64,000 nucleotides of DNA. Origin: Bradyrhizobium zhanjiangense. GTDB taxonomy: Bacteria > Pseudomonadota > Alphaproteobacteria > Rhizobiales > Xanthobacteraceae. The notes under the pieces are model-generated. The model was not told the DNA's origin. It saw only the letters and a program-made list of their open reading frames with translations, and searched no databases. Location of the stretch: NCBI RefSeq assembly GCF_004114935.1, contig NZ_CP022221.1, positions 4,857,001-4,921,000 of the forward strand. The letters run 5' to 3'. The position numbers were made by a program, and so were the translations under genes. This document shows positions 12,692-14,560 of the stretch, piece after piece. Within the stretch, counting starts at the first letter, position 1; the number at the start of each line of letters is the position of its first letter.

Positions 12692-13717
12692 TTACGCCAT
12701 CACCCGCTGCGGCAAGAGCTCGGCGATCTGCACCGCGTTGAGTGCCGCGCCCTTGAGGAGCTGATCCGCCGCCACGAACATCGAGATCGAATGGCCGCTG
12801 GCGTCGCTGAGATCCTTGCGGATGCGGCCGACCAGGACGTCGTCCTGGCCCGAAGCATCGATTGGCATCGGGAAGTAGTTCTTGGCGCGGTCGTCGACGA
12901 CCTTGACGCCGGGCGCCTGCGCCATGATGGCGCGGACCTGGTCCTCGGTGATCGGCTTCTCGCATTCGAAGGTGATGGCCTCGCAATGAGCGCGCAGCAC
13001 CGGCACGCGCACGCAGGTGACACCGACTGCAATGGTTTCGTCCTCGAAAATCTTGCGGGTCTCCTTGATGACCTTGGTCTCTTCGTCGTTGTAGCCGGTG
13101 TCAGGGTCGACCGCCGTGTTGTGGTTGAAGAGGTTGAAGGCGTAGGGGTGCGGCATCACCTTGGGCGTATAGACCTGCCCATTGAGATTGGCGCGGGTGG
13201 ATTCGACCAGCTCCTCCATCGCCGCAGCCCCGGCGCCGCTGGCCGCCTGGTAGGTCGCGATGATGACGCGCTTGATGCGGTTCTTCTGGTGGATCGGCCA
13301 CAGCGGCACCAGCGCGGTGATCGCGGCGCAGTTCGGGTTGGCGATGATGCCCTTGTGATCGCGGATGCGGTTCGCGTTGATCTCGGGGATCACCAGCGGC
13401 ACGTTCGGGTCCATGCGGAAGGCGGAAGAGTTGTCGACCACGACCGCGCCGGCCTTGACCGCGATCGGTGCGAACTTCTTGGAGATGCTGCCGCCGGCGG
13501 AGAACAGGGCGATGTCGACGCCCTCGAAGGAACGCTCGGTCAATTCCTCGATGACGACCTGTTGCCCGCGGAACGACACCGTCCTGCCGGCCGAGCGGGC
13601 GCTGGCCAGCGCCTTGAGCTTACCGACGCGAAAGCCGCGCTTGTCCATGGTGGCGATGAATTCGGCGCCCACCGCACCGGTGACGCCGACAATCGCGACG
13701 ACGGGATCGTTACTCAC
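12692..13717 (-). CDS. asd: Aspartate-semialdehyde dehydrogenase
   Basis: Reduces aspartyl phosphate to aspartate semialdehyde, the branch point to lysine/diaminopimelate, threonine and methionine. The 341-residue protein has the NADP-binding loop GVTGAVG at 11-17, the catalytic Cys130 in ANPNCAAI, and the substrate-binding region around HCEAITFE. The GTG start at 13717 was chosen because GGAGGA lies about seven bases before it and the domain begins at once; two in-frame ATGs upstream (13729, 13735) have no comparable site. Upstream on the same strand are a Thr-rich leader peptide and an intrinsic terminator, suggesting attenuation by threonyl-tRNA level. Confidence 0.97.
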   Translation of the reverse strand: MSNDPVVAIVGVTGAVGAEFIATMDKRGFRVGKLKALASARSAGRTVSFRGQQVVIEELTERSFEGVDIALFSAGGSISKKFAPIAVKAGAVVVDNSSAFRMDPNVPLVIPEINANRIRDHKGIIANPNCAAITALVPLWPIHQKNRIKRVIIATYQAASGAGAAAMEELVESTRANLNGQVYTPKVMPHPYAFNLFNHNTAVDPDTGYNDEETKVIKETRKIFEDETIAVGVTCVRVPVLRAHCEAITFECEKPITEDQVRAIMAQAPGVKVVDDRAKNYFPMPIDASGQDDVLVGRIRKDLSDASGHSISMFVAADQLLKGAALNAVQIAELLPQRVMA

Positions 13718-13748
13718 TTTGTCCTCCATTTGCATTGAGAATTTAGAC

Positions 13749-13783
13749 AACAAAAAAGCCCCGGACCATCGAGGGCGGGGCTT
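13749..13783 (-). terminator. Intrinsic terminator (attenuator) ahead of asd
   Basis: Read on the minus strand, AAGCCCCG and CGGGGCTT form an 8-bp stem with a 12-base loop, followed at once by TTTTTGTTGT. It lies between the leader peptide stop and the asd start, so it would stop transcription before asd unless an alternative structure forms. The G-runs near the end of the leader coding region (GGGGCCCGGGG) can pair with GCCCCG of the terminator arm and would make a plausible antiterminator. Confidence 0.85.
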
Positions 13784-13813
13784 CGGTAGAGCTGATGCGT
13801 TTAAGTCGACGAC

Positions 13814-13885
13814 CTACGCGCGCACGCCTCCCCGGGCCCCTGAGGCCGTGGTGGTTTTGGTCGTGCGTTTGGTGGTCGTGAACAT
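13814..13885 (-). CDS. Threonine-rich leader peptide upstream of asd
   Basis: A 23-codon frame (ATG at 13885, TAG at 13814-13816). Its first 13 residues are MFTTTKRTTKTTT: eight of the 23 codons are Thr and all eight fall in codons 3-13. It is followed after about 30 bp by an intrinsic terminator and then asd, whose product feeds threonine synthesis. This is the standard layout of a ribosome-mediated attenuator. A promoter-like pair (TTGACG, 17 bp, CATAAG) ends eight bases before the ATG, so the transcript may begin at or very near the start codon. Similar leaderless leader peptides are known for trpL of Sinorhizobium. Confidence 0.75.
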   Translation of the reverse strand: MFTTTKRTTKTTTASGARGGVRA

Positions 13886-13893
13886 GGCGGCGA

Positions 13894-13922
13894 CTTATGC
13901 GGGAGAGTCTTGCAGCCGTCAA
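13894..13922 (-). promoter_or_regulatory. Predicted promoter of the asd leader
   Basis: On the minus strand TTGACG (13917-13922) is separated by 17 bp from CATAAG (13894-13899), a fair match to a housekeeping sigma promoter. The expected start point, six to nine bases after the -10 box, falls at about the A of the leader ATG, leaving no room for a ribosome binding site. Confidence 0.6.
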
Positions 13923-13957
13923 TGGCTTTTCGCCCCGGTCGATGCCGGGGCCTGTCG

Positions 13958-14560
13958 CTATTTGGCCCGTGCGCCCGGCGGCTCCAGGATGACTTCCTTG
14001 AGGTCGTCGCCACTGATCACGACAATCGCGAAATTGAGCCGGCCGCGTTCGCGCACCAGCCCGCCGCTGATCGCCTTGCCAGAGGCCGCGCGTTCGGCGA
14101 CGCGCACGGCATCCGCGAGGCGGTGCCTGATCGCACCGAGCGCTGCGAGGTTGCTGCGGTCCTCAAGGTCGAGCTCGGCCAGGGGGAGGGCGGCTTCGCC
14201 GCCGACGAGCTCGCCGGTCGAAGCATTGATGGTGTGGCGCCAGATCCGGTCGTTGTGCAGGGTCTTCACCCGGTAGACCGGGACGCCCGAAGCTCCATCG
14301 AAACTCACATCCGCCGTCGTGGCGCCGGCGTGCCGGCCTTCCGCGATTGCCATGGCCTGGCTGATCGAGATCGACGAGCTGCGGAAGCGCTCAATCTCGC
14401 GGCTGACCGCCTGGCGGTCCGCTTCGGCATCACCATCTGTGTCGCTGTGAAGCGCGGTCGGCGTGCCCGCGGTCACAATCGCCTGTGCCGGTGCGGCGAG
14501 GAGCAGCGCGGGCAAGGCGATCGCAAGCAGTTGCGAGGTCCATCGTTTGGCTGTCGTCAT
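13958..14560 (-). CDS. Exported PepSY-domain protein
   Basis: A 200-residue exported protein. The signal peptide spans roughly residues 1-29 (MTTAKRWTSQLLAIALPALLLAAPAQA). Two PepSY-like repeats follow: SISISQAMAIAEGRHAGATTADVSFDG...YRVKTLHNDRIWRHTINASTGELV, and a second one ending in a LNFAIVVISGDDLKEVIL strand. PepSY domains are found as protease inhibitors and in redox or metal-linked membrane proteins. The ATG at 14560 has GAGGG upstream. A 19-bp palindrome 173 bp upstream matches one near the patatin gene and may be the operator of the neighbouring TetR protein. Confidence 0.8.
   Translation of the reverse strand: MTTAKRWTSQLLAIALPALLLAAPAQAIVTAGTPTALHSDTDGDAEADRQAVSREIERFRSSSISISQAMAIAEGRHAGATTADVSFDGASGVPVYRVKTLHNDRIWRHTINASTGELVGGEAALPLAELDLEDRSNLAALGAIRHRLADAVRVAERAASGKAISGGLVRERGRLNFAIVVISGDDLKEVILEPPGARAK

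Follow-up and report, generated by a model that had tools for sequence, protein, structure and literature searches.

The asd-B locus and its leader

The window, that is, the whole 64-kb stretch of DNA that was analysed (G000:C1:4857001-4921000), belongs to a one-contig 9.34-Mb Bradyrhizobium genome; among named records, Bradyrhizobium strains are closest to it. On its minus strand lies asd-B (12692..13717, GTG start), a second aspartate-semialdehyde dehydrogenase gene, which scored 408.8 bits with the NCBIfam asd_B model (cut-off 324.2). The ordinary alphaproteobacterial asd of this genome, asd-A, was found at G000:C1:540319-541317 and is 46% identical to asd-B; both scored above the cut-offs of asd_B and PRK14874. 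The enzyme is a branch-point enzyme for lysine, threonine, methionine and cell-wall diaminopimelate, and its product, aspartate semialdehyde, is shared between the pathway to lysine and that to homoserine, threonine and methionine. Among 397 sampled genomes of the order, the 15 that belong to the genus, with that of the window among them, had a close relative of asd-B (83-100%), and genome G087 has a gene at 63% identity. In a protein homology search with 8000 sequences scored, all of the 120 matches listed were named Bradyrhizobium or carried no organism.

A leader ORF of 23 codons with a TAG stop, MFTTTKRTTKTTTASGARGGVRA, precedes asd-B at 13814..13885 on the minus strand. Reading from 13885 to 13814 gave eight Thr codons, all within codons 3-13 (3-5, 8-9 and 11-13), exactly as the sequence-only reading had described, and in addition two Lys codons (6 and 10). 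It is the densest Thr stretch of the 64 kb in all six frames, with 8 Thr in 11 codons against 7 in 11 for the runner-up. The order of elements on the minus strand is TTGACG, 17 bp, CATAAG, 8 nt, the ATG of the leader, a hairpin with T6, GGAGG and asd-B.

The predicted intrinsic terminator (13752..13782, minus strand) is formed by AGCCCCG, a 12-nt loop and CGGGGCT followed by T6, the first T being the last stem base. Its stem has 7 pairs by strict count and 9, A-U pairs included, in the predicted fold, a range that brackets the 8 bp proposed earlier. The Shine-Dalgarno sequence of asd-B, GGAGG, follows at 13723..13727 (minus strand), and some similar 4-mer was found before the gene in 94 of 94 sequences. 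Since GGAG and GTG 13717 were kept in 80 of 80 named-record loci (the best 80 of 495 confirmed matches) and ATG 13729 in only 71 of 80, conservation indicates that asd-B probably starts at GTG 13717 (341 aa) rather than at ATG 13729, the start that agrees with the 345-aa length given in many database entries.

Conservation in Bradyrhizobium

Relatives were compared in a set of 95 sequences: the 80 named-record loci (78 titled Bradyrhizobium, one Bradyrhizobiaceae MAG and one 'Frankia'), 14 further genomes of the same genus and the window, some strains being in both sets. It contains 85 distinct sequences from ATG to T-run, and since the Bradyrhizobium-type sequences share descent, the counts are not numbers of independent events. 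The 'Frankia' record (L065 / L088, titled 'Frankia sp. RB7') has a Bradyrhizobium-type asd locus with a 94% identical protein and the same leader, and is probably mislabelled.

The leader was present in 80 of these best 80 loci. In the whole set, a Thr-rich short ORF of 22-24 codons was kept ahead of this pathway gene in 94 of 95 sequences, 91 of them with 23 codons. Its Thr count ranges from 4 to 9 and its Lys count is 2 or 3 (94 sequences). Lys6, Lys10 and Thr11, as well as Gly19 and Val21, showed no variation among the 48 distinct leaders of 23 codons. Thr5 was kept in 44 and Thr8 in 46 of the 48, with exchange between ACG and ACC, and synonymous changes among ACG, ACC and ACT preserve Thr at codons 3, 5, 8 and 9. 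Where Thr was replaced at codon 12, it was by Lys (AAA) in 4 of 48 leaders and by Ile in one; at codon 13, Lys was found in 7 of 48, Ala in 4 and Met in 1, so that Lys is the commonest substitute at both positions. Judged from these alignments, the Thr run is under codon-level selection. Across codons 16-22, third bases are mostly unchanged as well, which points to RNA structure.

One sequence, L083 (from 1342), has one G fewer after the Thr codons; the leader stop is lost and the frame is fused to asd-B over 396 codons. Its terminator hairpin is intact, and it is either a natural variant or a sequencing error.

A hairpin of the form GC(C/T)CCG...CGGGGC, with a run of 6 or more T behind it, lies between leader ORF and gene in 94 of 94 sequences, and a general hairpin-plus-T-run scan found it in 92 of 94. 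Its core hardly varies, hence covariation cannot test it. Conservation of the Thr codons and of the terminator upstream of asd in relatives had been suggested as a check on the sequence-only reading, and both were conserved. A repeat, palindromic by eye and with the core GGAAAAGTGG...CCGGTTTTCC, is inserted between terminator and Shine-Dalgarno sequence in 12 of 94 sequences by its core (L006, L007, L017, L018, L035, L042, L053, L056, L057, L062, L069 and L094) and in 13 by length, other strains showing an empty site. It is located where a transcription switch tolerates an insertion.

Promoter boxes and the leader start

A -35-like box, TTGACG (13917..13922), and a -10-like box, CATAAG (13894..13899), stand on the minus strand with 17-bp spacing, the second ending 8 nt before the leader ATG. 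This arrangement, pointed out from the single sequence, was repeated throughout, with 17 bp between the boxes and a 7-8 nt gap to the ATG in 94 of 94 sequences. TTGAC was at -37..-33 in 90 of 94, and in the other 4 both boxes lay 1 nt nearer to the ATG; CATAAG occurred in 93 of 94 (89 at -14..-9, 4 shifted by 1 nt) and TATGGT in one. Over 88 distinct upstream sequences, column entropy was 0.23 and 0.28 bit in the boxes; the spacer had 0.71, positions -8..-1 had 0.54 and the sequence farther upstream had 1.30. Furthermore, a Shine-Dalgarno-like 4-nt motif at -20 to -4 of the leader ATG was absent in 93 of 94 sequences.

In the trpL type of leader, the promoter puts the start at the AUG and there is no Shine-Dalgarno sequence. 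The box position in the asd-B leader agrees with this, though a simple promoter scan gave no sigma-70 site at the boxes, CATAAG being without the final T. In a single sequence, the boxes and the hairpin are weak (0.7 terminator-like sites are expected by chance in the 701-base region scanned, and 1 was found); it is their conservation that makes them convincing. Since the boxes are constant in position, vary little and are followed by no Shine-Dalgarno sequence, the asd-B leader transcript likely starts at its AUG, and the earlier suggestion of a leaderless RNA gains support from the constant gap.

Folding of the leader RNA

The 5' part of the proposed antiterminator is GGGGC in leader codons 16-17 (13836..13840, minus strand), together with CGG (13834-13832) and GGAG (13831-13828). 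Folds and alignments place its 3' partner, CTCTACCG, at 13784..13791 (minus strand), 22 bases after the TAG and just before the terminator arm. In the unconstrained leader fold, the Thr codons were paired with the stretch after the stop and the terminator was formed. The translating ribosome was modelled by masking the RNA as far as 12 nt beyond the A-site codon, an assumed footprint that sets the switch position. With this mask, GGGGC, CGG and GGAG paired with CTCTACCGAAGCCCC in the fold of the nascent chain, and when the A site was at codon 10-11, GGGGC paired with GCCCC in the terminator arm.

The same calculation was run on 83 of the 85 distinct sequences, leaving out the 2 without GGGGC. 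With the A site at codons 9, 10, 11, 13 and 24 (stop), the antiterminator reached a probability of at least 0.5 in 57, 78, 79, 0 and 0 of 83 sequences, the two zeros being by construction because the mask covers GGGGC, and the terminator did so in 50, 22, 14, 80 and 80. Under the assumed footprint, the antiterminator thus gives way to the terminator as the A site moves from codon 9 to codon 13, directly behind the invariant codons 10-11. For A-site codons 2-8 in the window, the terminator is the favoured structure at full-length equilibrium, and the antiterminator is favoured in the nascent fold only; at codons 12-14, the terminator arm retains other upstream pairing in the nascent chain (probability about 0.6). 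In L092, L093 and L095, the terminator is favoured at full-length equilibrium even with the A site at codon 11.

Compared with shuffled linkers, the antiterminator domain was slightly more stable (median z -1.02), with 7 of 83 sequences below -2. The pairing of the G-rich leader with the terminator arm, first proposed from the sequence alone, was reproduced by folding, which shifts as expected for mutually exclusive structures in 78-80 of 83 sequences, while its statistical support alone is modest and 2 of 85 sequences are without the G-run. In the clade of L034 and L046, presumably the B. elkanii group, codon 18 is TCG and the partner CCCGA, and the helix is kept; it is a single event, noted by eye, and does not amount to a covariation test.

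Leaders before other genes of the pathway

The asd-A of the window's genome is not preceded by such a leader, and within the family, a Thr leader before asd-A was found in 0 of 6 sequences (four same-genus genomes and one more of the family; L191 and L112 are the same place). Upstream of the asd-B-like gene of G087 are HTTKRTVKTTA and a related hairpin that has no T-run; the alignment scored 53, against 41 for the best of 200 shuffles. In the genome of the window, no Thr leader was seen before hom, which follows another ORF at a 28 nt gap, or before one of two thrB copies, which follows an ORF at 6 nt; the 350 nt upstream of lysC held no ORF of 8-60 codons with at least 4 Thr. Two homoserine kinase (thrB_alt) matches above the cut-off are located at G000:C1:1278979 and G000:C1:6076174 in this genome, which also has two asd genes.

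The regions upstream of asd-A were compared in 81 genomes of the order from 23 families (those listed with good scores, from 385 genomes with a match) and in a class sample of 70 sequences, 66 of them outside the order. An ORF end was counted when at least 4 of 8 codons were Thr and a stop came within nine codons. By this measure, 46 of 81 order genomes have a Thr-rich ORF end upstream of asd-A; at the stricter level of 5 or more of 8, the number was 35 of 81. The background, taken from 1196 windows on both strands of 44 of these loci, was 3.2% and 1.2%, respectively, which are upper estimates because the asd upstream regions were included. In a strand test at 5 of 8 or more, Thr windows were found in 33 sense versus 0 antisense of 81, with Val as the mirror image and 0.25 in shuffles (Thr only); L106 and L107 were misread in this count.

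Scoring Thr and Lys together, 55 of 151 sequences were positive, 49 of them in the order. Some families were fully positive (f11 8/8, f20 7/7, f28 6/6 and f24 4/4), and others had no Thr/Lys leader (f2 0/6, f18 0/8 and f35 0/4). Of the 66 sequences from outside the order, 6 had a Thr leader, in 4 of 41 families. In several families without Thr leader, the upstream frame of L203, L219, L225, L230, L232 and others ends like a C-terminus that we take to be that of 3-isopropylmalate dehydrogenase, suggesting the order leuB-asd.

Typical asd-A leaders end in KTTTKTV, GTKTTTTT or KTKTTKTA directly before the stop. The last Thr is 0-6 codons before the stop (54 of 55 listed), whereas ten codons follow it in the asd-B leader. 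A hairpin with T-run after the leader was seen in 4 of 55 (f156, both f199 and, weakly, one f29). L252, L254 and L259, all outside the order, have Thr/Lys leaders before asd and then GC hairpins with T-runs, a second terminator-bearing group. No consensus pair emerged when 34 of the 55 positive sequences were aligned across families. Just 6 of 55 asd-A relatives had a TTGAC-like box at 30-40 nt upstream of a possible start, so the leaderless promoter looks specific to the Bradyrhizobium copy.

Comparison with known systems

The enterobacterial thrL peptide mixes Thr and Ile codons. The asd-B leader shares with that attenuator (thrL-thrABC; Rfam RF00506) the Thr-rich leader peptide, the terminator/antiterminator and a gene of the threonine pathway, and differs in the target gene, in having Lys instead of Ile as second codon, in the bacterial class, and in its missing Shine-Dalgarno sequence and apparently leaderless start. 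RF00506 had no match at the gathering score in the window and none at E ≤ 5 in 13650-14000 (two unrelated weak hits), and no Rfam membership was found for the asd-A leaders (10 loci).

The trpL/trpE(G) attenuator of S. meliloti is a ribosome-mediated attenuator of the same order, and A. tumefaciens and B. japonicum have leader peptides of this type as well. In S. meliloti, the trpL mRNA begins at its AUG, according to PMC7298713 and PMC10117765; the system uses Trp codons before trp genes, and the trpL peptides quoted in those papers do not resemble the asd leader peptide. For B. japonicum, PMC4842269 gives 192 gene transcription start sites exactly at start codons, with an extended -10 motif TGnTA, where the asd-B leader has CATAAG. 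The word 'asd' is absent from the main text of that paper and from the main texts of PMC2965389, PMC3766115 and PMC5082802. An ilvB leader peptide is mentioned in PMC1273637.

To our knowledge, and in the sources seen, attenuation in alphaproteobacteria has been described for trp and ilv. The closest precedent is SEP5 of S. meliloti, a small ORF located in a 5'-UTR; six of its codons are for Thr and three for Lys, and it is translated according to Ribo-seq and Western blot (PMC10117765). That text places it upstream of a so-called aspartate dehydrogenase gene, which is probably asd, suggests a leader-peptide role and calls SEP5 conserved only in Sinorhizobium. It resembles the asd-B leader in its upstream Thr/Lys cluster and proposed role; it differs in that its control codons lie near the 3' end, as in asd-A leaders, and no terminator or mechanism is described in the sections consulted. 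In the literature available, this suggestion was the only precedent found for a Thr leader before asd, and novelty is provisional, since subscription literature such as the Vitreschak 2004 survey may hold alphaproteobacterial Thr attenuators.

Proposed mechanism and alternatives

The asd-B attenuator is real, conserved and very probably working, sensing Thr and likely Thr plus Lys, and on sequence and folding grounds the leader and terminator very probably turn the gene on when threonine, perhaps also lysine, is scarce. From the elements, their conservation and the ribosome-position-dependent folding, all observed, we infer the start, translation, stalling, termination and amino-acid response. 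Transcription would begin at the leader AUG or within a base or two, and a ribosome would bind this 5' AUG without a Shine-Dalgarno sequence. If threonyl-tRNA (or lysyl-tRNA) is scarce, it would stall within the Thr/Lys run, the G-rich codons 16-19 (GGGGCCCGGGGAG) could pair with CTCTACCGAAGCCCC, which takes in the 5' arm of the terminator, and with this arm occupied RNA polymerase would read through into asd-B. If both tRNAs are charged, the ribosome would pass codon 13 and cover the G-rich codons, the AGCCCCG/CGGGGCU hairpin would form before the U-run, and transcription would end with an RNA of about 134 nt. Leaderless, ribosome-mediated transcription attenuation of asd-B by charged threonyl-tRNA, and probably also lysyl-tRNA, is thus proposed with good confidence. 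The threonine attenuator proposed from the sequence is supported, and extended by the invariant Lys codons, the second asd gene and the order-wide Thr/Lys leaders.

The alternative to be taken most seriously is that threonine alone is sensed and the Lys codons serve the peptide or the base composition. It fits the 8 Thr against 2 Lys codons of the leader and the asd-A upstreams, where Thr windows had the strand bias given above and windows with at least 4 of 8 Lys occurred in 2 of 81; yet Lys6 and Lys10 never vary, Lys is the commonest replacement for Thr at codons 12 and 13, Thr and Lys codons occur together in nearly all asd-A leaders, and the asd product feeds both pathways. This reading is quite conceivable, but somewhat doubtful. 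Regulation of asd-B translation by masking of its Shine-Dalgarno sequence, in place of termination, appears unlikely, even if most asd-A relatives have Thr/Lys codons abutting the leader stop and few have a hairpin with T-run. In 44 asd-A sequences, the stretch after the stop paired with that before asd with a mean of 11.4 pairs versus 6.0 after shuffling, but just 11 of 44 beat at least 38 of 40 shuffles, and masking the start of the stretch freed the Shine-Dalgarno sequence little (0.47 to 0.55-0.57 unpaired, with an upstream GTG or TTG taken for the asd start in some sequences). This weak release and the lack of consensus pairs leave translational control at asd-A a guess. At asd-B, the universal hairpin with at least 6 T speaks against it, as does the inserted repeat, which a direct structure between leader and Shine-Dalgarno sequence should not tolerate.

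It is also rather improbable that the main role of the terminated RNA, or of the peptide, is in trans, with asd regulation secondary. The S. meliloti leaderless trpL yields a trans-acting sRNA and peptide (rnTrpL/peTrpL; PMC7298713), and the asd-B leader RNA of about 134 nt encodes the conserved C-terminal residues GGVR. However, this conservation includes the third base of most codons and is explained by RNA pairing, and Thr/Lys richness before asd recurs in families with otherwise unlike peptides. A chance Thr-rich frame beside an ordinary terminator can hardly account for the data: a terminator-like site is nearly expected in the region and four other window sites have at least 6 Thr in 11 codons, but the leader is conserved throughout the genus set and recurs before asd elsewhere far above background. 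A chance origin was rejected by the sense/antisense and shuffle, background-window and six-frame window controls.

Biological meaning

In mechanism, the asd-B attenuator is of the known thr/trp type. Its target is new, it has a second candidate codon, its start is probably leaderless, and its relatives form a broad group of which little has been described. A broader reading is offered tentatively, at slightly less than even confidence: an old asd control, widespread in Hyphomicrobiales and some other alphaproteobacteria, in which a leader peptide reads Thr and Lys, the end products of the two branches, with two outputs. One, at the second asd of Bradyrhizobium, would combine a T-run terminator with control codons early in the leader and a leaderless start (T-run hairpins also occurring in two families outside the order), and the other would be a terminator-less, perhaps translational switch with stop-abutting codons on the ordinary asd; Bradyrhizobium would have the sensor on its second gene only and none on the first.

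Leaders of this kind, some followed by a terminator and others not, are found across many families and so form a natural series of one sensor with different outputs. The leaderless leader peptide offers a case for studying initiation without a Shine-Dalgarno sequence. The comparison also suggests that SEP5, a small protein described as Sinorhizobium-specific, would belong to a broad class. The dual Thr/Lys leader, if true, would be a simple means of sensing two products where a metabolic pathway forks.
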